Below are positions 3,555-27,502 of a DNA stretch of 64,000 bases, piece after piece. The stretch lies in the NCBI RefSeq assembly GCF_900120005.1, contig NZ_LT635451.1:124001-188000 (forward strand), written 5' to 3'. Origin of the DNA: Holdemania sp. Marseille-P2844. Lineage in GTDB: Bacteria > Bacillota_I > Bacilli_A > Erysipelotrichales > Erysipelotrichaceae. Within the stretch, counting starts at the first letter, position 1; each line of letters begins with the position of its first letter. Below the pieces are notes generated by a model. The model saw only the letters and a program-made list of their open reading frames with translations, ran no database searches and was not told the DNA's origin. The position numbers and the translations under genes are program-made.

Positions 3555-3933
3555 CTACTTCTTTTCCTGATTCTCCTTCATAAATGCCCGCAGAAGCTTC
3601 ATGAAAGCCCGCTTTTCAATCCGCGAGACGTAGGATCTGGAAATGTGTTCCTGTCTGGCAATATCCCGCTGCGTCATTTCCTGATGCCCTTCCAGCCCAT
3701 AGCGGCGGACAAGGATGCTGTGCTCCCGTTCATCCAATAAACCCATGAACTGAGCGAGCTTGCGTTTGTTTTCCTCAAGCATCAATTTGTCGATGGGGTC
3801 AGGCTGGTCCGGGGCGGGAATCACGTCGATCAAGGTCAGCTCGCTGCCATCTTTATCCTGACCAATCGCATCATCTAAAGAACGCGTCTGGAAAGCATGC
3901 TTGTTGTTGCGTAAGTGCATCAGAATTTCATTT
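3555..3933 (-). CDS. sigK: RNA polymerase sigma-K factor, 3' part (split gene)
   Basis: Encodes sigma region 3-4 of the late mother-cell sporulation sigma factor. The frame at the break reads NEILMHLR, which continues the conserved CIENEILMHLR of SigK. It then shows IGQDKDGSELTLIDV and the region 4.2 helix-turn-helix MTQRDIARQEHISRSYVSRIEKRA. There is no start codon with a ribosome site in this fragment. The 5' part is at 24937-25267. Joining the two parts at the shared AAATG (on the minus strand) keeps the frame and gives about 234 codons, close to the usual SigK length. Confidence 0.9.
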
Positions 3934-5757
3934 GCTATCCTCCCCCCAATGCGTTTTTAAAGCACTGAGGGGATTAGTTTTTCCCAGGCGGTCATCCTCC
4001 ATATCGTCAGTATCATAATCGACATCAGAGAAGTTCACCAATTCCTCTGTTTCGTCATCATCCTCAGTATTACCGGATGCTACAGCAGCAATTTCCGGAT
4101 ACTCGATTTCATCATCCTTTACACCAAACAGAATCACATGGGCGTTGACACCATCCCATACCACCTTACGCACAATGGTACGAATGGCAGCACGTTTCTG
4201 TTCAACTGTCATTTCATCAATGCCATCCTTGAAGATGGTCAGCAACTGACGAAGCAAATCAAATTCAATGTCGCTGAGAGCGTGCTGTGAAGTCAGTCCC
4301 TCCAGTTCCTGAATACGCTGTTCAAGGGACTGGTATTCTCCATTCAACTGCTCAATTCGTTTGGTTACATGAGCCTTGGCAGGGCTGTCACCCATATCTA
4401 CGAGGGAGTCTACCAGAGAGTTGATTTTCTTCTCTGTATCTGCCTTTTCTTTTCGCATATCATCCAATCGCTGTTCATAGTCCATACGATTGCCGGTATA
4501 GAATCTGCGGCTTTGCTCCAACTGTGCAATGAAAGTGTCTTTGTCCTCTGCAAGCATTTTAATCTGCTCAACCACAGCCATATCCAAAGTGTTGCCGTTG
4601 GCATTTTTGCTGTTGCACACAGATCTCTGACTGCGTTCCTTCATTTTGCAAACATAGGTATAAATTACCTTGCCGTCCGCAGTTTTGCGCTTGCTCATCT
4701 TCGGGTACATACGCTCACCGCAGCTACAGAACAACAATCCAGTCAAAAGTGCTTCGTTACTGCGAGGTTTTCTGAAAGACTTCGACTTATTGCGTTCCAG
4801 AGATTCTTGAATCTGCACCCACACTTTACCCGGAATCAGACCCGGATGTTTGCCGACAGATACAATCCACTCGCTTGCAGGCAGGTACTTGGTGGCTCTG
4901 CCTTTTTCCTGATCGGTACGGTTGTAAGCCATAATACCATGCTGGTTATCGAAAGCATCTTTTTCTGAGAACAAGTCTGTATCGTTCTGAACGAAGTAAT
5001 TATAGGCATCTTCATCCGCAATCATATAAACCGGATTTTGCAAAATAGCTTTGATTGAGAAACGAGTAAAGTAGTTATTGTTTTTTGTCTTGATACCCTG
5101 TTTGATCAAGGCAGCTTCTGTCAAAGTCAGAGAATCTGTTTCTATATATAAATCATAAATCATTCTAACAATATCAGCTTCATCCGGAATCAGTTTCAGC
5201 TTGCAGGCTTTCTTGGATTTACCATCAATGGTAATGCTCTTAACTGCTTCTGACGCATAGCCGGTAGGTGTCGTACCTCCAAGCCAGCGTCCGGTCTTTG
5301 CCAGTTCGTGCATATTATCACGAATACGTTCTGCGATGGTTTCACGTTCCAATTGAGAAAAAACCGATGCAATATACATCATAGCTCGTCCCATAGGAGT
5401 GCTTGTATCGAACTGCTCTTTAATAGAAACAAAAGAAATATCCAGACGAGCCAGTTCTTCAATCAAAGTAGAAAAGTCGCTGATATTTCGACTGATACGG
5501 TCAAGACGATAAACAATAATTGCCTTGAACTTACGCTTCTTGGCAGCGTCCATCATCTTCTTAAAATCCGGACGATTCAAATTACCGCCAGAAAATCCTT
5601 CGTCTTCATATACAACAACTTTATCAACAGCGGCATCACCATAATGCACACGAATATATTCCTTACAAAGTTCGACCTGATTGCCGATACTTTCGCCTTT
5701 GCCCGTGAACTTAGACTTACGGGAATAGATAGCAATCATTTCTTCATTTTTCCGCAT
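3928..5757 (-). CDS. large serine recombinase of the sigK element
   Basis: Catalyses integration and probably excision of the element through Ser-phosphodiester intermediates. The N-terminal resolvase domain starts IAIYSRKS (the catalytic Ser in YSRKS) and shows YEDEGFSGGNLNRPDF, VYRLDRISRN and SQLERETIAERI. A recombinase domain (about residues 165-290), a zinc ribbon (CSCGERMYP...C...C) and a coiled-coil tail follow. I prefer the ATG at 5757, 8 nt after GGAGG; the ATG at 5763 is too close. The stop codon is supplied by the attachment core plus host DNA, so in the excised circle the frame stays open into the HTH gene at the other end. Confidence 0.93.
   Translation of the reverse strand: MRKNEEMIAIYSRKSKFTGKGESIGNQVELCKEYIRVHYGDAAVDKVVVYEDEGFSGGNLNRPDFKKMMDAAKKRKFKAIIVYRLDRISRNISDFSTLIEELARLDISFVSIKEQFDTSTPMGRAMMYIASVFSQLERETIAERIRDNMHELAKTGRWLGGTTPTGYASEAVKSITIDGKSKKACKLKLIPDEADIVRMIYDLYIETDSLTLTEAALIKQGIKTKNNNYFTRFSIKAILQNPVYMIADEDAYNYFVQNDTDLFSEKDAFDNQHGIMAYNRTDQEKGRATKYLPASEWIVSVGKHPGLIPGKVWVQIQESLERNKSKSFRKPRSNEALLTGLLFCSCGERMYPKMSKRKTADGKVIYTYVCKMKERSQRSVCNSKNANGNTLDMAVVEQIKMLAEDKDTFIAQLEQSRRFYTGNRMDYEQRLDDMRKEKADTEKKINSLVDSLVDMGDSPAKAHVTKRIEQLNGEYQSLEQRIQELEGLTSQHALSDIEFDLLRQLLTIFKDGIDEMTVEQKRAAIRTIVRKVVWDGVNAHVILFGVKDDEIEYPEIAAVASGNTEDDDETEELVNFSDVDYDTDDMEDDRLGKTNPLSALKTHWGEDSK
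3929..3942. other. left attachment junction of the sigK element (core CATTT plus element arm)
   Basis: Plus strand: host sequence, then the 5-bp core CATTT (3929-3933), then the element arm GCTATCCTC (3934-3942). The same core occurs at 24937-24941, preceded by GAGGATAGC. The core lies inside the conserved SigK codons for E-N-E. The recombinase stop codon (TGA, 3928-3930) is formed by core plus host DNA. Confidence 0.85.
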
Positions 5758-5799
5758 TTTCATATCCTCCTTATCTTGATATGTGATGTGTCTTGTGGT

Positions 5800-9792: not shown

Positions 9793-9841
9793 GCCACGAC
9801 TGCTACTCCATTATAGAGCAACAGCCGTGGTTTTCTTATCG
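9793..9841 (+). terminator. terminator between the 9046 gene and mobA
   Basis: Stem GCCACGACTG with CAGCCGTGG (one mismatch), followed by TTTTCTT. It is a relative of the hairpin at 6227-6265. It overlaps the stop of the converging mobA gene. Confidence 0.7.
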
Positions 9842-11539
9842 TTCGTATTCTTTCTTATTCTGCTTCTTCGATTGTGGCACTACCTGTTCCGGTGTCTTCA
9901 ACTGTTCATTGATAGAACGCTTTTTCTTATGAATCGGCTGCTCCTTCAATTCGGCATCAATCTGCCGGTTGGCTTCATCGAAGGTATCAGAACTGTATTT
10001 ATCTCTGTATTTCTCATACAATTTCCGAATCATACCGACCATGCCTTCAGGACGGAGGGCTTCACGTTTCTGCATGACAGCACCCTTATTTTCCGGTGCA
10101 ATACCATCTCGGATTTCAAGGAACTCTGCTTTATTAGCTTCTTTCTGCCCGGACAATAGGGTGTGCTGTTGCACTAAGGTATCCAGCGTCGTGTCCATAT
10201 CTTTTAATGCCTGCTTCTTAGCAGCAACACCATTATCCTGGCAATTCAATCGAGCCAGCAACTGTGCCTTCCGGAATTTCAGTTCTTCAATATCCTCCGT
10301 CAAAGTGGCTATCTGTTCGCCCAGCTTACCTGCACGGATGAAGTGAATACCGCAGTTTTTCTGCTCTGCAATCAGTTCTTTTTTCTCAGCAGTTTTGGCT
10401 TTGATTTCAGATTTTACATTTTTGTATTCAGCCAGTATATCGGCCAGAAGATTTTTCTGGAAAACTACCGCTTCCTGCTGAGAAATATTCATGATCAACT
10501 GATATTGAATCAGAACCATGTGGTCACGCAGAGTTTCCAATGCAGAAGCGATGGCCGGAATATTTTCTTTGACAGCTTTCATCAGCTTCTGTACTTGTTT
10601 TTTCAATTCACGCAGGAGCTTATTATCTGCTTTGATCTGACGGTTCAGTTCACAACGGCCAGAAACAATTCCCATGGATTCCAGTTTTCTTGCATGGTAT
10701 CCTTCGTGGACGGTCGGCTGTTCGCTCAATCCTCTGGCGGCATGACTGCGACAGTCTACACGATCGGCAATACCATGACGTGCCTGTTCTTCATTGATAA
10801 TCGTTTCCCAACTCTTACGCCACGCAAATATCTGTTCCTCGCTGTTCCAACGCTCTGTAAGAGGGTTCTGTCTCCCATAGCGGGTACTTTTGGGTGTCTT
10901 TGATGTTCTGATACATCCCTCAATTTTCTCGGCTTCAGACGGGGTTAAATACTCCTTTTTCTCCCCGAACTGATACATATATTGTTTCTCCCAGCCCTGT
11001 GTCTTGGAGACTTTGAACTCATCAGCGGTAAATCCACGTTCTTCGCTGCCACGCTTACAAAGATATTCTTTCTGTGTCTTTGCCTGCCACTTGCCATGCT
11101 CATCCAAGGGACGCATGGTGAAAAGAATATGGCTATGGGGATTATGCCCCGGAGGGTACGGATCATGGATGTTCACATCCGCACACATTCCAAGGTCAAT
11201 ACCTTGCTCATGAACAAAACGCTCCAACATATTTTTCCAGTCATCCAAGGACAGTTCCGATGGCAGAGCAACCACAAACTCTCTTGCCAGTCGGCTGTCC
11301 TTTGTTTTTTCTACGGATTCGACTGCTTCCCAGAGCAGCTGCCTGTCTTTCCATTCTGCCGGTGCATACTGCGGAAGAAAGACTTCGCTATACAAACATC
11401 CCTGTTTTCTGGTGTAGTCATGGGTAAGTCCGTCATAATCATTGTAGAGTCGGGAGCAGGATGCATAAGCGGCAGCTGCTATTACGGAACGTCCTGCACC
11501 ACGGCTCACAACTTTTGCTTCCAAATGGAAATAGTTCAC
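9836..11539 (-). CDS. mobA: MobA/MobL-family relaxase
   Basis: Nicks oriT and pilots the element in conjugative mobilization. The relaxase domain (residues 1-230) shows YFHLEAKVVSRG near the start, the conserved AAAYASCSRLYND segment, EFVVALPSEL and the metal-binding histidine motif HNPHSHILFTMRPLD. A long coiled-coil C-terminal half follows. The true start is the GTG at 11539 directly after AAGGAGG; the 10 codons upstream lack a ribosome site. The oriT lies about 300 bp upstream of its start, as in MobQ plasmids. No coupling protein or mating-pair genes are seen. Confidence 0.92.
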   Translation of the reverse strand: MNYFHLEAKVVSRGAGRSVIAAAAYASCSRLYNDYDGLTHDYTRKQGCLYSEVFLPQYAPAEWKDRQLLWEAVESVEKTKDSRLAREFVVALPSELSLDDWKNMLERFVHEQGIDLGMCADVNIHDPYPPGHNPHSHILFTMRPLDEHGKWQAKTQKEYLCKRGSEERGFTADEFKVSKTQGWEKQYMYQFGEKKEYLTPSEAEKIEGCIRTSKTPKSTRYGRQNPLTERWNSEEQIFAWRKSWETIINEEQARHGIADRVDCRSHAARGLSEQPTVHEGYHARKLESMGIVSGRCELNRQIKADNKLLRELKKQVQKLMKAVKENIPAIASALETLRDHMVLIQYQLIMNISQQEAVVFQKNLLADILAEYKNVKSEIKAKTAEKKELIAEQKNCGIHFIRAGKLGEQIATLTEDIEELKFRKAQLLARLNCQDNGVAAKKQALKDMDTTLDTLVQQHTLLSGQKEANKAEFLEIRDGIAPENKGAVMQKREALRPEGMVGMIRKLYEKYRDKYSSDTFDEANRQIDAELKEQPIHKKKRSINEQLKTPEQVVPQSKKQNKKEYER

Positions 11540-11675
11540 TATTTTCCTCCTTCCTGTGCCACAGCACAATTTTTGATTCTTTTTCTGAAAAAGAAAATAG
11601 GTGCGGTAAATGCTGCACCTATCTCTGCGATAAAACTGCCGGTGGCAGATTTTCGCAGGCAGTTAGCGCAAGGTA

Positions 11676-12259: not shown

Positions 12260-13102
12260 TTAAGTACCGGAATTTAATATTTTTCGTGCTTCCTGCATAT
12301 TGGCAGCTGCGTTCAGTTCTCGGATATTCTGATTATTGATTTTCAGAGGAACACAACGCTCCAATACTCGGTCATAAATTCTGGCTCTTGCCAGATCTTT
12401 CGGATGTTTCAGCTCATCCAAGGTCAGATTGGTGGTTACAATCAGCGGCTTTTTGCTTCGGTATCGGCTGTCAATCACATTGAATACCTGTTCCAGAGCA
12501 AATTCTGAACTTCGTTCAATTCCCAGATCATCAATAATCAGCAGACTGTATTTGTTAAAGCTGTCAATGAACTGGTTTCTGTCATCGGAATACATTCCGG
12601 TCAGCGTATTCAGGATTCTGGAAAAGTTGGTCATCAAAACCGGAATTCCTTTGTCCAAAAGGGCATTTGCAATGCATCCGGCGAAAAAGGATTTGCCGGT
12701 TCCCACATCGCCCCAGAGGAGCAATCCCAACGAGTTGGCTTTCATTTCCTCCCAATGTGCCACATAATCATGGGCTTTCTGCATTTCCGGATTATAGCCT
12801 TTATCATTAGCAAAGTTGTAATCTCGCAGGGATTTGTCCTGCAATCCATTGGCTCTCAATCGGGATACTTGTATTAGATGTTCCTGATGCTGGCGCTCCG
12901 CTTCTTGTTTGTCATATTCCTCCTGTTGACAACGGCAGCGAACTGTGGGGAGAAATACTCGTTCCTTCAGTTCAATTCGGTGCTGTCTGGGAGTATGGCA
13001 TTTGGAACAATAGATCAGCCCGTCAGCTTCGTTCAGATATTCGTCCGCTGCAAGCTCTCTTGGCTGAAACAGATCGTCCACGGCGTTGCTAATTGGTTTC
13101 AT
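12260..13102 (-). CDS. DnaC/IstB-like AAA+ replication protein
   Basis: 280-aa helicase-loader type ATPase for element replication. A zinc-finger-like N-terminus (CSKCHTPRQHR...CRCQ) is followed by Walker A GDVGTGKSFFA, Walker B LLIIDDLG and sensor IVTTNLTLDEL. Its start overlaps the stop of the RepA gene by 4 nt, indicating translational coupling of initiator and loader. Confidence 0.87.
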   Translation of the reverse strand: MKPISNAVDDLFQPRELAADEYLNEADGLIYCSKCHTPRQHRIELKERVFLPTVRCRCQQEEYDKQEAERQHQEHLIQVSRLRANGLQDKSLRDYNFANDKGYNPEMQKAHDYVAHWEEMKANSLGLLLWGDVGTGKSFFAGCIANALLDKGIPVLMTNFSRILNTLTGMYSDDRNQFIDSFNKYSLLIIDDLGIERSSEFALEQVFNVIDSRYRSKKPLIVTTNLTLDELKHPKDLARARIYDRVLERCVPLKINNQNIRELNAAANMQEARKILNSGT

Positions 13103-13818
13103 AGGCTTTCATCCTCCTTACATTCATAGGTTCGTTTGACAGGAGCAGGATGGTCACGCAACACCCAGCTTCGTATGGTAGCAGCATGGTTGGAATATTG
13201 CTTACCACTGGATGCCATGTAGCTGGATAGCTTTTCAATGTATTCCTGATAGTGGGGAACTACCTTTTGCAAGGAAATCAGTTCTTCCACGCTCAAGAAA
13301 ACATTTTGATAAGAGCCATAGGCGGTACGTTCATCCTTACTCTCTGTATTTGTTCTTTTCATATTGTTCTTCTCTTTATTACTACTGGACAGTTTTCTTT
13401 CTGTCACAGAGACAGTTTTCGTTCCATCTGTAGGACAGGAATCTGTCTGCCTAACAGAAAGATTTCTGTCCGTCTGAGCCAGTGCTTCCAATGGATATTT
13501 GATATAGATCCTGTTTGGAAACCCTGCGCCCTGACGTCTGCGGACAATCAGATTTTCTTTTTCCAGAGCAGATAGTGCAGTCTTGATGGACATTTCGCTC
13601 TTATGCATGGTTTCTGCCAGACTCTTGATAGGAAAGAAAATGAACACATGACCTTGTTCATCTGACCATCCATCGTTTTTCTGTGACAGCCTTGCTCGGT
13701 CGAGCAAAACCGTGTAGAGAATTTTTGCGGTTTCACTCAGTCCATCTTTGTCCAGTAGAAATCTTGGAAATGCCATATACGGCGGTATCGGACTATCCTG
13801 TGTCAGAAATTGTGTCAT
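13099..13818 (-). CDS. repA: replication initiator RepA N-terminal family
   Basis: 239 aa. The N-terminal RepA_N domain has the typical IPPYMAFPRFLLD...LSETAKILYTVLLDRARLS followed by a winged-helix region (KSLAETMHKSEMSIKTALSALEKENLIVRRR). The middle is low-complexity and the C-terminal part small. ATG 13818 follows GGGAGGTG. Together with the DnaC-like protein it suggests that the excised circle can replicate, which may support its maintenance after excision. Confidence 0.85.
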   Translation of the reverse strand: MTQFLTQDSPIPPYMAFPRFLLDKDGLSETAKILYTVLLDRARLSQKNDGWSDEQGHVFIFFPIKSLAETMHKSEMSIKTALSALEKENLIVRRRQGAGFPNRIYIKYPLEALAQTDRNLSVRQTDSCPTDGTKTVSVTERKLSSSNKEKNNMKRTNTESKDERTAYGSYQNVFLSVEELISLQKVVPHYQEYIEKLSSYMASSGKQYSNHAATIRSWVLRDHPAPVKRTYECKEDESL

Positions 13819-13857
13819 GTGTTCACCTCCCATCTATGAGATCAGCTCGGAGAAAAC

Positions 13858-16949: not shown

Positions 16950-17109
16950 TGTAAATACCGACCACATAGAGCACTCTGCACGGTCATTTAGAGCAGACCT
17001 TCCGCTGATTTAGAGCATCCTTTCCGCTCTGTTGAGCACTCCGTTTTATATATCCTATAATAAAACCGGCACACGATTGTGTGACTATTATTATAGGAGG
17101 TCGATAACC

Positions 17110-18672
17110 ATGGTTGATTATCGAGAAATTTTGAGGCTAAAAAGCCTCGGCTACAATCAAACTGATATCGCTGCCAGTGTCCACAGCTCACGCAATACGA
17201 TTCAAGAAGTTCTTAGTATTGCCAGTGCTTTACAGATTCAATGGCCACTTGATGACGATGTCACAAACCGCGTACTGGAATCTATTCTTTATCCGGACAG
17301 ACACAAAAAGGATGAAGAACGTTTGATTCCTGACTATCCCCGCATTCACAGGGAACTAGCAAAGAAAGGGGTAACGCTTTCTCTTCTCTGGACAGAATAC
17401 TGTATAGAGGCAAGGAATGCAGGTAAAACGCCGTACATGAGTACCCAGTTCAATGATAACTATCATAAATGGGCACGTGTTTCCAAAGCCACTATGCGTA
17501 TTCAGCATAAACCCGGTGATACAATGGAGGTCGATTGGGCAGGAGCTACCATTGATATTTATGATTCGGTAACCGGCGAAGTTACACCGGCATATCTGTT
17601 TGTTGCTGTATTATCATGCAGCTGCTATGTGTATGCTGAAATCTGTATTAACATGAAATCCGATACGTTTATTAACTGCCATGTACATGCTTATGAATAC
17701 TTTGGCGGTGTAACCCGTCTGTTAATACCGGATAATCTAAAAGCCGGGATTACAAGAAATACCCGGTACGAAACCGTAATTCCTCGTGCTTACAAGGAAA
17801 TGGCAGAGCATTATAACACTGCTATTGTTCCTGCAAGGGTAAAGCATCCGGATGATAAGCCTAATGCCGAAGGCTCTGTTAAGTTTGCAACCACCTGGAT
17901 TCTGGCGGCACTTCGTAACTACCATTTCTTTTCTATTGAAGAAGCAAGAATGGCTGTTTCTGAAAAGCTCGAAGAGCTGAATAACCGTTCATTTACAAAA
18001 CGGGCAGGAAACCGCCGTATTGCCTTTGAGAATGAAGAAAAGGAATTTATGCAGCCGCTCCCTTTGTGCCCTTACGAACCGGCAGTCTGGTCCACTGCTA
18101 AGGTTCAGAACGATTATCTCATATCGGACGGAATCAATAAATACTCAGTTCCATTTGATTTAATCGGTGAACATGTGGACATTCGCTGTACCGGCACAAC
18201 TGTAGAAGTATTTTTCCATGGATGTCGTGTTGCTTCTCATGTAAGAAGAAACGTGGCACAGAGGAATCCTATCTCTATCAAAGAACACATGCCGCCGGAA
18301 CACCAGAAATATCTTACTTATAATCCGGAGGAGTTTAAAACATGGGCAGAATGTATTGGCGAATTCACATCAAGGGTTGTTAATTACTTCCTTTATTCCG
18401 GCAAAGAACCAGAACAGGGTTATAAATACTGTGTCAGTCTGATGAAGATGGCTGACCGTTACGGACAAAACCGTATCGAAAAGGCTTGTGAGAGACTGTT
18501 ATCCTTTACATCACAGCCTTCTTTGAGAAGCATTGCAACCATTCTGAAAAATGGACAGGATAAACTTCCATTAGAAAAGACAGTGGAGGAACATCCTGTT
18601 TCAGAAAAACGTAGCAAAGGAATTACCAGAGGTGCATCTGCCTACAGAAATGGAGGTGATGCAACATGTTAA
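17110..18672 (+). CDS. istA: IS21-family transposase IstA
   Basis: 520-aa DDE transposase. N-terminal HTH ([28 protein letters not shown]), then the catalytic core with first Asp in [11 protein letters not shown], second Asp in [11 protein letters not shown], and the Glu in [19 protein letters not shown]-terminal beta domain follows. ATG 17110 is placed 8 nt after AGGAGG. The istB start overlaps its end. Confidence 0.93.
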
Positions 18673-19457
18673 ATAATTCTACGCTTGAAACGTTAAAAGC
18701 TATGCACTGCAGCGCAATGGCATCAGAACTGGAAAACCAGCTGAGTGACACCAAAACATATGGAACACTTGCCTTTGAAGAACGTGTTGCTCTCTTGGTG
18801 GATGCTGAGTGGAACAGGCGTCAACAAAATAAGCTTCAAAAGCTGATAAAACTGGCAACCTTTTCTCAGCCAACAGCATGTATTGAAAACATAGAGTACT
18901 TACCTGACCGGAAACTGGATAAAGCGCAGTTACTACGGTTTGCTACCTGTCAGTATATCAGCGAGAATCACCATATCATTCTGAAAGGTGCCAGTGGTTC
19001 CGGTAAGACATATCTTGCCTGTGCACTGGGCAACGCAGCCTGCCGGAAATATAAAACTGTACGCTATATCAGAATGCCCGAGTTGTTGGACGAACTCAAT
19101 CTTGCAAAAGCAGATGGTTCGTTCCGTAAAATAATTAAAGCTTATCAAAAGGTAGACCTTCTGATTATTGATGAGTGGCTGATTCGTAAACTTACACCGC
19201 AGGAAACTTACAACCTGTTAGAAATCATTGAATCTCGTGTGAACAGTTCCAAGGGTTCCATGATCTTCTGTACACAGTATAACAATGAGGAATGGTATGG
19301 TCGTATTGATCCGGAATTCGATGAAGGAAGTCCGATATCGGAAGCCATCATGGATCGTATTACGAATAACGCTTATGATATCCTCATTGAAGGAAAAACA
19401 TCTATGAGAAAGCGTCATGGCTTACAGGCTTCTCAGGAAGGAGCTAACCATGATTGA
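18666..19457 (+). CDS. istB: IS21-family helper ATPase IstB
   Basis: 263-aa AAA+ protein that assists IstA target selection. Walker [16 protein letters not shown], Walker [10 protein letters not shown], and sensor [14 protein letters not shown]. Overlaps istA by 7 nt, the usual coupling. Confidence 0.93.
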
Positions 19458-21550: not shown

Positions 21551-23857
21551 CTACTCAAGCATTTCCTTTCCAAGATATAATCCTGCCTGTGCATACGTCC
21601 CAAGCAGTTCCTGTTTCTTTGCTTCAATCATATCCGGTTCAAACTCAAATACCATTTCATAGATTTCCATAGCTTTCTGGAAATGAGAAGTAGCCTGTTG
21701 GATTTCTCCCATAGTCAGGCAGATACCGCCCATAGCTTCTTGTACACTGGCATAATCCAGACCCGTATCAGAATTATATTCTCGGATTACACGGCACAGC
21801 TTTCGTAACGCAGATAGACCAACATCCGGCTGTCCCATATCTGTCAGTAATACAGCATAGTTTGTAATCTGCACAATGCTGTCATGGTAATAAGCCAGAC
21901 CATATTCATCCATAATTCTGATTGCCTGTTCCATGTTCTCTTTAGCAAGTTCCAGTTTACTATTTACTCGATACATTCCACCAAGATTAGCATAGAGATT
22001 GGAAACCAAAAGGGCATTATCCGGTGTGACTTCTGAAATCATAGCAATGGCATCTTTCTGCATCTTGATTGCTTTATCCGGTTTCTTCTCATAAGCTGCT
22101 CGATAGCTGAGCAGTAATGCTCGATCAGACGCAGATCCGGCAGCCACATCTTTCAGCAATGCAGACAGCGTATCAATAACCTGTTCCATGCCCGGATAAT
22201 AATGATAATTCTCCATATACGGAAACACATCTTCCAAGAATCGGAGATATGCCGGCATATCATCATTTTCAATCTGCACTATCACAGATTCGATAGTCTG
22301 GAATAACTGCTTATGATAGGAAACTTCTTCTCCGTGACGCAGGCAGATCTGCTGTAAGCTGTCAAGTAATGCATGGCATTTCTGCACGGACGGTTTTGTT
22401 TCTTCTATGGCTACTTCCTGTATCATCGGATGAAGGGCGATCATGCGACCTTCCAGTGCTTTTATGAAGCCTTTTTCTATGAGGTCGTTGACAGTATTCA
22501 TATCACGCAGCTTCAGCCAGTTTGCAAACAGTCTGTTCTGAACACCAGTCATCGGAGCCAGCGCAAGATTTCTCATAACATCGGTTTCTGCTTCTGAAAG
22601 CTGATACAGAGAAAATAAGGTGTGGATATGGTCATAATAGGTAGCCTTGCAACTTTTCCCATCCTTGGAAATGCCGATGGTGTCGGTAGCATCCAGGGCG
22701 GCTTTTTCCTCTTTCAGCTTCTTTAACAGGAGTAACGGCTCCATAATTCCGCTTTCCAACAAGCAAGCCGACATTTCTACCGCCAAAGTATGACTGTGTA
22801 CCGTTTGGATGATTTGTTCCAAAATTGGACGGTTCTTTTCAGCATCAGAATAGAAACAGCCCATTAAATTAACCAATGCTTCTGTATCAGAGATTTCTTC
22901 CAGATTCATGGAAGTATAGTTGTTAAAGCTGCTTCGTGTAGTGAACAGAATACGGCAGCGATATTTCATCACAACCGACAGCAAACCATCCTGCGTTGCT
23001 GTAGTATTGAAGTTATCAATGATAAATAAAGTATCCTCTTTCAATGTGCGCAGGAAACGGTTATGTTTGCGGAAACGTTCTTCGCTGTCATCATCCGGCA
23101 GATCATCCGCAAAATCCATATCAGAAATATCTTGTTTCAAATCACCGGTGTAGGAAAGAAATAGAATATTTGTGTATTCTTTGCTATGAGCCTTGGCATA
23201 GGCTTTTGCCAACTCACTTTTACCAATACCGGCGATACCTTGCAGAAATACCTTTCCATGTTTACACAACAGCTGATGTAAAGTTTCAAGTTCATTGTCT
23301 CGTCCGCAGAAATGACGGCATGGCTTTGGTGTTCCGCCATCGTAGATAAAATCTTTCACAACCGGAGAAAGATTTCCAGCTGACAACAGATTCTTTGTAT
23401 TTGCATCTCTCTTTACGAAGTTACGCTCCATGCCAAAACACAACGCAGAAGTTAGAAAAAACGCTTCGTCCATTTCACTTTCACAAGGATAGTTCTGAAG
23501 GAGCTGTTCCTTGGTTTTATCCGAGATAGTTGTATCCTGTACCAGAATGTTATAGACTTCCTGCACTGCCATAGCACTGTCATACATTATCGACAGTACA
23601 TTTCTGTGCATATCAGCAGCGAGCCTATTTCGATTATGGAGATCCATATAGTATCCGGTGATGCGAGGACTGATTTTTGCCTGACCGTTAAACCAACGGC
23701 AGACTAATCCATTATCAAAAGTAAAATCCAAGGACTTTTCATCACTTAGGAAGCTGACAAACAAATCGTACATCAAATCCAGTTGATTCATATTATGTGC
23801 ATCACTGATATATTTACGAATAATGGTGATGACTGAACTGAAATCTAAATATTCCAT
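21551..23857 (-). CDS. STAND-type NTPase with TPR-like C-terminus
   Basis: 768 aa. Residues 1-170 are an unassigned helical domain. Then comes a STAND core: CRHFCGRDNELETL (about 180-193), Walker A GIAGIGKSE (207-215), Walker B TLFIIDNF (276-283), sensor RILFTTR (302-308), and a winged-helix region. The C-terminal third (about 570-768) reads as TPR repeats (LYANLGGMYRVNSKLELAKENMEQAIRIMDEY...). STAND/TPR proteins act as regulators or as anti-phage sensors; which one applies here is not decided by the sequence. Inverted 11-bp iterons lie 24 bp upstream of its start. Confidence 0.82.
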   Translation of the reverse strand: MEYLDFSSVITIIRKYISDAHNMNQLDLMYDLFVSFLSDEKSLDFTFDNGLVCRWFNGQAKISPRITGYYMDLHNRNRLAADMHRNVLSIMYDSAMAVQEVYNILVQDTTISDKTKEQLLQNYPCESEMDEAFFLTSALCFGMERNFVKRDANTKNLLSAGNLSPVVKDFIYDGGTPKPCRHFCGRDNELETLHQLLCKHGKVFLQGIAGIGKSELAKAYAKAHSKEYTNILFLSYTGDLKQDISDMDFADDLPDDDSEERFRKHNRFLRTLKEDTLFIIDNFNTTATQDGLLSVVMKYRCRILFTTRSSFNNYTSMNLEEISDTEALVNLMGCFYSDAEKNRPILEQIIQTVHSHTLAVEMSACLLESGIMEPLLLLKKLKEEKAALDATDTIGISKDGKSCKATYYDHIHTLFSLYQLSEAETDVMRNLALAPMTGVQNRLFANWLKLRDMNTVNDLIEKGFIKALEGRMIALHPMIQEVAIEETKPSVQKCHALLDSLQQICLRHGEEVSYHKQLFQTIESVIVQIENDDMPAYLRFLEDVFPYMENYHYYPGMEQVIDTLSALLKDVAAGSASDRALLLSYRAAYEKKPDKAIKMQKDAIAMISEVTPDNALLVSNLYANLGGMYRVNSKLELAKENMEQAIRIMDEYGLAYYHDSIVQITNYAVLLTDMGQPDVGLSALRKLCRVIREYNSDTGLDYASVQEAMGGICLTMGEIQQATSHFQKAMEIYEMVFEFEPDMIEAKKQELLGTYAQAGLYLGKEMLE

Positions 23858-24914: not shown

Positions 24915-24928
24915 AAACGCATCTGCGA

Positions 24929-24941
24929 GAGGATAGCATTT
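24929..24941. other. right attachment junction of the sigK element
   Basis: Element arm GAGGATAGC (24929-24937) overlapping the core CATTT (24937-24941), then host TCGATACAGCG, which encodes the SigK R-C-I-E segment on the minus strand. Pairs with the left junction to form a symmetric circle joint. Confidence 0.85.
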
Positions 24942-25267
24942 TCGATACAGCGGGAAACATAAGTTGCCAGCTTATGTCCTTTATCGACCTTGAACGTGTC
25001 GATGCCTTTGATCAAACCGATCGTACCGATGCTGATGAGATCTTCGGTTTGTTCGCGGCGGATATCGAATTTCTTTACGATGTGCGCGACTAAACGAAGA
25101 TTGTGTTCGATTAAATCAGCCCGCGCTTCGACGTCGCCTTTGGCCATGCGCTGCAATGCGTCTTGTTCTTCTTCCGCTGTCAAAGGCTGCGGGAAGGAGG
25201 TTGTCCGGATGGAACCGATAAAGCAGCTGAAGAAAATCTGTAGCATTTGAAAAAGTTGTGTCCACAT
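24937..25267 (-). CDS. sigK: RNA polymerase sigma-K factor, 5' part (split gene)
   Basis: Encodes a hydrophobic pro-sequence (MWTQLFQMLQIFFSCFIGS) followed by SFPQPLTAEEE, IEHNLRLVAHIVKKF, TEDLISIGTIGLIKGIDTF and KLATYVSRCIEN, the SigK region 2 signature. ATG 25267 follows AGAAGGTGA; a TTG six codons upstream has no better site. In the integrated state the frame runs into element DNA and stops at 24806, giving a protein lacking regions 3-4. The pro-sequence suggests activation by proteolysis, as for Bacillus pro-SigK. Confidence 0.9.
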
Positions 25268-25283
25268 AGTTATCACCTTCTTC

Positions 25284-25291
25284 AACGTATG
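25284..25291 (-). promoter_or_regulatory. candidate SigE-type -10 element of sigK
   Basis: CATACGTT on the minus strand fits the SigE -10 consensus CATACA-T, 16 nt before the chosen start. The -35 match is weak. Expected biology (SigE transcribes sigK in the mother cell) supports it, but the motif is short. Confidence 0.35.
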
Positions 25292-25629: not shown

Positions 25630-26940
25630 ATGTTTGCGAATAACAAAATGCGAGAAAACAGTGGACGTCTAATCAAGATCTATCGTGAACGAATGCATCA
25701 GGGATCTAAAGATAAACGTTTCAGCTGCAACGAATTTATTTTAGCGACCAGGGAACATCCTTTTTATGAAGTTGTTGAGGGTGAACCGGTTTGTTCCCGA
25801 GCTACATTAAATCGTTTAGAGCGGGGACAGATCATCAAAGATGATGAGTTATACGTCTTCTTCATTGAGAAACTGGGGTTTAAGGTCGATGACTTTCCGG
25901 GGGTGATGTCACAGGTTGAATTAATTAGTGCTGAATTATTTGAAGCTGTAGAACTGTATGATATTAGGAAAATAAAGGAAATTGATAATAAAATAGAAAC
26001 TCTATTCACTAAAGCTAAATCATATTTCTATTATAGTGATATTTATGAAGCATTTAAAATTATTATACAATACTATTTGTTTGCTGAATATCCTAATAGT
26101 GTGACTGCAGAAAGAATGTATTATACGAGTTTTTTATTAAGCTCAAAAATAGATGAAATACTTAAAAATATATTATTTGATTATTTTTTCTTTAGAGAAA
26201 TGAATATGTCTTACTCTGAGAAAATATCAGAACAATTAATTAGTTATAAAAATGGTTCACAAATTTCAACAATTTATATAGTTTTCTGGCTTATTTATAA
26301 AGAAAGGTTATTAGATGCCTTGCGCTATACTGAACTGGGAATCATTTATTTTACGCAATTAAATAGCATATATTATTTAGGTATTTTATATTATACGAAG
26401 GCATTGGCTTTGCATACAGGCAATAAAGATAATGTAAAAAATTACTTTGATCGATCTATAGAATATTTATCAAAATGTGGAGGTCGATTAGCTGAAAAAA
26501 AGCTCAAAGAAAATTATTTTAACGTAGGTTATCATTATTATTATGATAAGGATTATCTATTAGCCAAGGAATACTTTGAAAAGTTCTTAAGTTATAAGCC
26601 TAAGTTTACAGCTCATATTTTACATGTTTTAGAATGTTTTGAAGAATTAAATTTACCAACAGATACAGCGTTATTCAAGCAGATTCATTTAGAGGATCCC
26701 AATGATAATAGTACTTGTAAAATTTTTTATGAGTATTTTTCAATGAAAATTAATAATGCTTCTGCTAAAGAATTACAAAATTTTATCATGACGGATATTC
26801 ATAGATTATTGATAAATCAATATCGTTCAGAAAGCATTTTAAGCTATTTTAAGTCTGAATTATCAAAATTAGTAAAAATAACGAAAAAATATAAAGATAT
26901 TGATAGTTTCAATGATTTTACTTCGCATAAAATTGCTTGA
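25630..26940 (+). CDS. HTH-TPR regulator, RRNPP-like (Rgg/PlcR type)
   Basis: 436 aa. The N-terminal 90 residues form an XRE-like DNA-binding domain with an insertion (IKIYRERMHQGSKDKRFSCNEFILATREH...CSRATLNRLERGQIIKDDELYVFFIEKLGF). The remaining 340 residues are helical, aromatic-rich and TPR-like (NYFNVGYHYYYDKDYLLAKEYFEKFLSYKP). RRNPP regulators are cytoplasmic and bind re-imported peptides through such repeats. The next gene encodes a small secreted peptide. Much more AT-rich than neighbours, suggesting acquisition. Strong ribosome site TTGGAGGGGG. Confidence 0.65.
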   Translation: MFANNKMRENSGRLIKIYRERMHQGSKDKRFSCNEFILATREHPFYEVVEGEPVCSRATLNRLERGQIIKDDELYVFFIEKLGFKVDDFPGVMSQVELISAELFEAVELYDIRKIKEIDNKIETLFTKAKSYFYYSDIYEAFKIIIQYYLFAEYPNSVTAERMYYTSFLLSSKIDEILKNILFDYFFFREMNMSYSEKISEQLISYKNGSQISTIYIVFWLIYKERLLDALRYTELGIIYFTQLNSIYYLGILYYTKALALHTGNKDNVKNYFDRSIEYLSKCGGRLAEKKLKENYFNVGYHYYYDKDYLLAKEYFEKFLSYKPKFTAHILHVLECFEELNLPTDTALFKQIHLEDPNDNSTCKIFYEYFSMKINNASAKELQNFIMTDIHRLLINQYRSESILSYFKSELSKLVKITKKYKDIDSFNDFTSHKIA

Positions 26941-26980
26941 TATGTAAAGATTTCATGATTCAAATATTCTGACTTTTGAA

Positions 26981-27021
26981 ATGTAACAAAAACATATTAA
27001 ATGCGATTTTCATTATATAAT
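26981..27021 (+). promoter_or_regulatory. candidate regulated promoter of the peptide gene
   Basis: -10 TATAAT at 27016-27021 with no good -35 at the expected place. The inverted repeat ATGT-N7-ACAT (26981-26995) sits over and just upstream of the -35 position, as an activator site would. Confidence 0.45.
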
Positions 27022-27043
27022 AAGACCGTTGAAAGGAGGAAAT

Positions 27044-27205
27044 ATGAAGAAAGTATTGTTAAGCGCATTAGCTTTAGTAGCGTTATGCGTATTGTGTACA
27101 CCAGTGAGTGCTGAAGAAACAGACCCAGAAGGTTGCTCTGTTGAACATCCAGAATTGTGCATTGAACCAGCGGGTTGCACAGCACCAGATTGCATGTTTG
27201 GTTAA
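27044..27205 (+). CDS. small secreted Cys-rich peptide precursor, candidate signal peptide of the TPR regulator
   Basis: 53 aa, very strong ribosome site GAAAGGAGG. The N-terminus MKKVLLSALALVALCVLCTP is a classic signal peptide, cleavage likely after VSA (residue 23). The predicted mature part is about 30 residues, acidic, with Cys at 31, 39, 45 and 50, ending APDCMFG. It lies 103 bp after the regulator on the same strand. It could be a pheromone precursor like PapR; a small bacteriocin or another secreted peptide is an alternative. Confidence 0.7.
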   Translation: MKKVLLSALALVALCVLCTPVSAEETDPEGCSVEHPELCIEPAGCTAPDCMFG

Positions 27206-27218: not shown

Positions 27219-27458
27219 TGAATTGCATAAAATCAACAACAATGTTTATTATGGCGAAGTAATGGGGGCTTCATTCTACGGGAAAACGAGTGAACGAAAC
27301 AAGGTAGAAGAACTAAGTTGCAGAAACATAATAAACCGGACCGCTACAGTGAGAATAAAAACATAATCGATATTTATTTGATGTCTTGCTTGTAGAAAAA
27401 TGATAAAAATTGGTGAGTGATCGGTCTATTTATAGGTGCAAAACCGGTCGCAGGCAGT

Positions 27459-27502
27459 GATGGAGAATCTGATAGGGAGTCGGATTCTCCATCGTTTTTT
27501 TG
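27459..27502 (+). terminator. terminator downstream of the peptide locus
   Basis: Stem GATGGAGAATC with GATTCTCCATC, 13-nt loop, then GTTTTTTT. The stretch between the palindrome and this hairpin (27219-27458) holds no supported gene. Confidence 0.85.

Follow-up and report, generated by a model that had tools for sequence, protein, structure and literature searches.

Do the two genes that lie head to tail at positions 25,630 to 27,205 of a 64,000-nucleotide stretch of the Holdemania sp. Marseille-P2844 genome (hereafter the window) form a peptide-signalling pair, and if so, of what kind? The initial annotation had described a 436-aa HTH-TPR gene followed by a 53-codon gene and had likened the layout to that of PlcR-PapR. 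Both open reading frames were found on the + strand, at 25630..26940 and 27044..27205, separated by 103 nt. We consider that the regulator and the peptide probably constitute an RRNPP-like peptide-signalling pair, a reading carried by the conserved adjacency of the two genes, the RRNPP-like fold of the regulator and the recurrence of a cysteine-pair tail in peptides encoded beside its relatives.

The larger gene encodes a putative pheromone receptor with a predicted N-terminal HTH (residues ~1-85) and a helical-repeat, TPR-like domain (residues 86-436). Pfam gave no HTH match for the window regulator alone and a TPR_2 match (E 0.02) below the cut-off; NCBIfam gave it no name, and none of the subfamily models (PlcR, Rgg, ComR, Rap, NprR, AimR) matched it. 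Its relatives likewise have only generic TPR or HTH matches in Pfam, TPR_2 being detected in 13 of 22 at E<=0.1 and an HTH in 3 of 22, and a profile built from these 22 retrieved TPR proteins, RapF being the hit among signalling proteins of bacteria. An AlphaFold (AF2) model of the regulator, based on an alignment of eight sequences, consists of helical repeats with a mean pLDDT of 84.8. The top PDB fold match of this model was ComR (E 6e-4), the sole match below 0.001; Rap phi3T with its pheromone, PlcR-PapR, Rgg2 and NprR were also among the top 50, with weak E-values and with eukaryotic TPR proteins intermixed, and identity in the fold matches was only 10-16%. Family profile and predicted fold together support the putative HTH and TPR domains, the model aligning in fold to ComR and PlcR in the case of the HTH. 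Among the Holdemania species, identity amounts to 85-96% in the HTH and to only 48-57% in the TPR part, as would be expected of a receptor whose DNA target is fixed while its ligand changes. Within the HTH, Cys55 (window 25792-25794) is the sole invariant column of the alignment, shared by 22/22 diverse regulators.

The peptide gene (MKKVLLSALALVALCVLCTPVSAEETDPEGCSVEHPELCIEPAGCTAPDCMFG; 27044..27205, +) is retained in all four Holdemania species compared, namely the window genome (G000), H. filiformis DSM 12042 (G001), H. massiliensis AP2 (G002) and an uncultured Holdemania (G003). In each of them the peptide, 51-53 aa long and preceded by a strong ribosome site, begins 103-106 nt past the regulator stop codon; in the window the Shine-Dalgarno sequence is a perfect AAAGGAGG (27032..27039, +) just before the ATG. 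A putative Sec-type signal peptide (residues 1-23; 27044..27112, +), with a predicted cut after V/I-S-A, was recognised by eye from KK, a hydrophobic core and VSA or ISA at residues 21-23 in 4/4 species, and hydropathy, charge and the VSA site fitted the Sec type in all four. The spacing of the cysteines is C31-x7-C39-x5-C45-x4-C50. The ribosome site, the signal peptide and this spacing had all been proposed in the initial annotation; the ribosome site and the spacing are borne out here, the signal peptide fits by sequence, and the RRNPP-like layout is supported. No substitution occurs in the four-species alignment at the four mature cysteines, at S-A in the cleavage site or in the PDCM tail. 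Silent sites of the gene have diverged by 63-77%; the figure for replacement sites is 24-32% gene-wide and falls to 5-18% in core residues 44-52. Considering this difference and the nearly constant distance of the start from the regulator, the peptide is more than a chance open reading frame; it is under purifying selection, most markedly in its C-terminal core, GCx[SA]PDCM. Conservation is thus highest at the C-terminus of the propeptide, where the predicted pheromone core, C45-T-A-P-D-C50-M-F-G (27176..27202, +), sits and forms the most conserved part within the genus. The region of the first cysteine pair, C31...C39 (27134..27160, +), is possibly a degenerate copy of the core, the clearest case being G003, where GCLNPEDC lies beside GCTSPDC. 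Neither Pfam nor NCBIfam gave the peptide a name. Two other identities were rejected: a lipoprotein, as no lipobox was seen by eye ahead of any cysteine, and a type I toxin, as the mature part is hydrophilic and under selection.

Adjacent regulator-peptide pairs in relatives, which the initial annotation had proposed to look for, were found. A regulator profile search gave matches in 73/273 genomes and 35/60 genera of the Erysipelotrichaceae, more than 100 relatives in all. The surroundings of about 110 distinct regulators were scanned, on both sides and both strands, for short open reading frames that have a ribosome site and whose N-terminus resembles a signal peptide, cysteines being ignored. 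With a strict filter, a downstream secreted candidate was present beside only 23 of 92 usable regulators. Eleven of these 23 candidates, equivalent to eight independent cases since four are Holdemania orthologues, had C-x4-C in their last 14 residues, whereas in 5,000 shuffles of the mature parts the average was 1.4 and the count never exceeded 8. Open reading frames that have a ribosome site and end in a C-x3/4-C tail numbered 21 in regulator flanks and 0-4 in simulated flanks. The same filter applied to 149 control genes returned four candidates, two of them with C-x4-C, and both of these peptides are encoded immediately ahead of a regulator, in the gap that separates ileS or clpB from the receptor gene. 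The view that the cysteine content is atypical for such a pair is upheld and can be extended, as the last pair, C-x3/4-C, recurs across the family.

The tail usually takes the form C-x-x-P-[DEG]-C. In Holdemania it reads CTAPDC-MFG, CSSPDC-MFQ, CSSPDC-MWQ or CTSPDC-MFQ, and the window genome has at least three regulator-peptide pairs, two further ones (L010, G000:C15; L069, G000:C16) having the related tails ARCGYPECDFGSY and ARCSFPECGFGG, read as CGYPEC-DFGSY and CSFPEC-GFGG. Other C-x4-C tails are CDSPEC-LDID, CNKPGC-NEA, CSSPGC-WVIA, CPGPGC-DPS, CPQPLC-KQL, CYGSDC-VSLN, CFGLGC-KDH, CLFDEC-G and CILWEC, and shorter C-x3-C tails are CTPDC-WL, CSPEC-WGI, CWFNC-E, CGFFC-E and CIGIC-W. The peptide gene is downstream of the regulator in most cases, upstream in L019 (CDSPEC) and L031 (CNKPGC), divergent in L097 (CLFDEC) and convergent in L071 (CFGLGC). 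On the regulator tree, whose deep branches are weakly supported and where the label "none" means that the filter found nothing, the C-x4-C label was scattered yet clustered, with 9 changes against a shuffled mean of 13.7 and 0/500 shuffles as low. Sister regulators adjoin similar peptides (L010/L069, L064/L074 and L090/L093). Several regulators (L028, L032, L039 and L046) adjoin secreted peptides free of cysteine, so that cysteines are no general requirement of this receptor class. Extending the search to the order added just one genome from beyond the family, and it had no Cys peptide. The IMG/VR viral contigs (searched with regulator and peptide) and the plasmid and phage collections (searched with the regulator) contained no relative, and carriage of the pair by mobile elements was accordingly set aside as having left no sign. 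From these alignments and neighbourhoods, we infer an RRNPP-like receptor-propeptide family with a conserved cysteine pair in its pheromone.

How would such a pair operate? In our preferred reading, the 53-aa propeptide would leave the cell by Sec and be cut after VSA, and the remaining ~30 aa would be trimmed outside the cell to a C-terminal peptide of about C-T-A-P-D-C-M-F-G, whose two core cysteines, judging from their spacing, probably close a small disulfide loop. The peptide would then re-enter through one of the many Opp-type binding proteins of the genome, which has twelve SBP_bac_5 matches, and bind the TPR groove of the 436-aa regulator. The window genome also has one DsbA-family match. 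Elsewhere in this genome, eight Opp-type binding protein genes lie within 29 kb (G000:C17:385688-414498), a striking expansion, and could serve peptide import.

The bound regulator would activate the promoter of the peptide gene, giving a positive loop. Alignment and a hexamer scan place a perfect −10 box, TATAAT, at 27016..27021 (+). The same scan found no good −35 hexamer ahead of the peptide gene in the four Holdemania species, and their alignment contains a conserved box, TGTA(A/T)CAA (26982..26989, +), upstream of the −35 position as a candidate regulator site. This combination would fit a promoter dependent on an activator. The stop codon of the peptide gene is directly followed by a conserved structured RNA (27229..27445, +), which is 96/89/88% identical in three species where the peptide coding sequence is 66% identical, and which includes a 10-bp helix with compensatory changes. 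It is present as a single copy in each of the 4 Holdemania genomes and was absent from the 264 other family genomes searched; Rfam returned nothing above the gathering score. An intrinsic terminator follows (27459..27502, +), recognised from a hairpin with paired alignment columns and a T run. The peptide transcript appears to include the RNA, which may be its 3' part, ending at 27459-27502. A broader picture can be drawn, one we consider rather unlikely in its entirety: Erysipelotrichaceae would use disulfide-looped pheromones with the core C-x-x-P-[DEG]-C, sensed by TPR receptors in the cytoplasm, as signals of both density and redox state, and the Holdemania pheromone mRNA would also be a regulatory RNA, with a dual function like that of RNAIII.

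Among the alternatives, the one that survives best, and to which we give somewhat less than an even chance, also takes the peptide as a signal. Its cysteines would be free thiols, bind a metal or become reduced on import, and the receptor would read a linear peptide; any loop would merely protect the peptide outside the cell, which makes this a variant of the signalling pair rather than an explanation exclusive of it. Holdemania live in an anaerobic habitat, no VKOR match was found in the window genome, and the cytosol is reducing, so that an imported disulfide would meet reduction there. Statements in two papers describe RRNPPA signals as linear (PMC10518010) and as "short, unmodified pheromones" (PMC12998947). 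Against a purely linear signal, the spacing of 3-4 residues within the pair, mostly with a proline, is kept across genera while other residues vary, a pattern that suits a loop.

A second alternative dispenses with signalling altogether: the secreted peptide would be an effector, for instance a small bacteriocin with disulfide bonds, of which the regulator controls only the production. Regulator and bacteriocin genes are common neighbours, and four cysteines in a mature part of 30 residues would suit a small secreted antimicrobial. However, no immunity or transport gene was found beside the pair, some mature parts are very short (that of L086, for instance, ends in ...QATCILWEC), and the regulator has a pheromone-receptor-like fold. 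In addition, the conserved part is the extreme C-terminus, which is the usual place of RRNPP signals (PMC10075063). We therefore regard an effector as improbable.

It is more improbable still that the two genes are paired by coincidence, the conserved secreted peptide happening to lie beside an orphan TPR regulator that senses something else. Regulators with no conserved peptide gene, which the initial annotation would have counted against a pair, do exist: beside the distant syntenic regulators of G037, G080 and G075, which lie by a UPF0154 gene, no recognisable peptide gene was found. These proteins are only 22-24% identical to the window regulator, and might be orphan listeners of the type described for RRNPPA systems (PMC9765709). 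A chance association is hard to reconcile with the presence of the same tail beside regulators at many loci and in four gene orders, with 11/23 candidates against the 1.4 expected.

The least probable alternative is that the locus controls sporulation timing through sigK, an idea which arose from the proximity of the two and which loses ground on two counts. Although sigK is the divergent neighbour of the regulator in three Holdemania species, in the fourth (G003) it is on another contig, and the regulator there is preceded by ileS at a distance of one gene; ileS also stands upstream in genus G055 (order ileS, peptide, regulator). In the window, a 21-kb element interrupts sigK. The statement that the pair sits next to sigK holds for codons 1 to ~109 (24917-25285, −), but the remainder of the gene is 21 kb away (3558-3950, −), the split falling between regions 2 and 4. 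If both parts are fused at the AAATG that they have in common, the product is a 234-aa SigK closely resembling the H. massiliensis protein; excision at this motif would restore SigK. The skin-like insert (about 3930-24940) has a large serine recombinase at one end (3931-5763), a MobA/MobL relaxase (9839-11569), a RepA_N initiator (13102-13833), a ParM-like gene, an IS21-type istA/istB pair (17032-19454, +) and a gene for a 768-aa AAA_16/TPR protein of NB-ARC-like layout (21551-23857, −). It shares with the skin element and other sigK intervening sequences the split sigK and the large serine recombinase at one end, and differs from skin in having the relaxase, RepA_N and ParM-like genes and not recognised phage genes; its character appears to be that of a mobilizable element, not of a prophage. 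In H. filiformis (L013, 1-1100), the interval separating the intact sigK from the regulator contains decayed, incomplete copies of the 5' end of sigK, which may be relics of an earlier rearrangement at this site.

Taken as a signalling system, the pair suggests a variant of cell-to-cell signalling in bacteria that is so far undescribed. We know of no earlier sign of a looped or thiol-bearing signal in the RRNPPA class; a pair as widespread as this one, with its conserved Cys-x3/4-Cys tail, would provide the first. The literature searched held no description of peptide quorum sensing in Erysipelotrichaceae, a gut family, and the main texts of the RRNPP surveys consulted mention no cysteine, disulfide or Erysipelotrichaceae; subscription papers lay mostly outside this scope, and an earlier description is possible. 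Since the TPR match of the window regulator falls below the Pfam cut-off, TPR-based screens may miss such receptors, and the recurring motif offers a way to find pairs that they would overlook.

Among known systems, ComR, the best fold match, and the other streptococcal systems of this type (ComR-ComS/XIP and Rgg-SHP) likewise combine a cytoplasmic receptor, with an HTH and a TPR-like domain, and an adjacent, very short peptide gene. They differ in that they have no conserved cysteine pair, in that no family model ties the window regulator to Rgg, and in that SHP-type propeptides lack a Sec signal and are exported by PptAB (PMC10075063). PlcR-PapR of the Bacillus cereus group has a receptor followed by a short Sec propeptide with a C-terminal signal, an arrangement predicted here as well, and PlcR is among the best fold matches; its receptor has ~285 residues (284 in 2qfc) instead of 436, and the PapR7 peptide is the cysteine-free ADLPFEF (PMC6568020). 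Rap-Phr, NprR-NprX and AimR-AimP join TPR receptors to Sec propeptides, as predicted for this pair, Rap phi3T and NprR being among the fold matches; Rap has no HTH, in contrast to the one predicted here, and the known signals of these three systems contain, to our knowledge, no cysteine pair. The candidates of RRNPP_detector resemble the pair in their receptors of 250-500 aa, their adjacent genes and their small Sec propeptides, the Sec route being predicted here, and the main text of that paper mentions neither cysteine nor Erysipelotrichaceae (PMC10075063). The window regulator lies within this length range, the propeptides (53 aa here, 34-76 aa in relatives) fall within the 10-100 aa of RRNPP(A) systems, the genes are neighbours, and a TPR-like superhelix is indicated by the AF2 repeats and by the RRNPP structures among the best fold matches. 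Where known pairs have a linear signal without a cysteine pair, the predicted core here conserves one. We therefore file the pair within the RRNPP(A) kind, as a variant outside any named subfamily.
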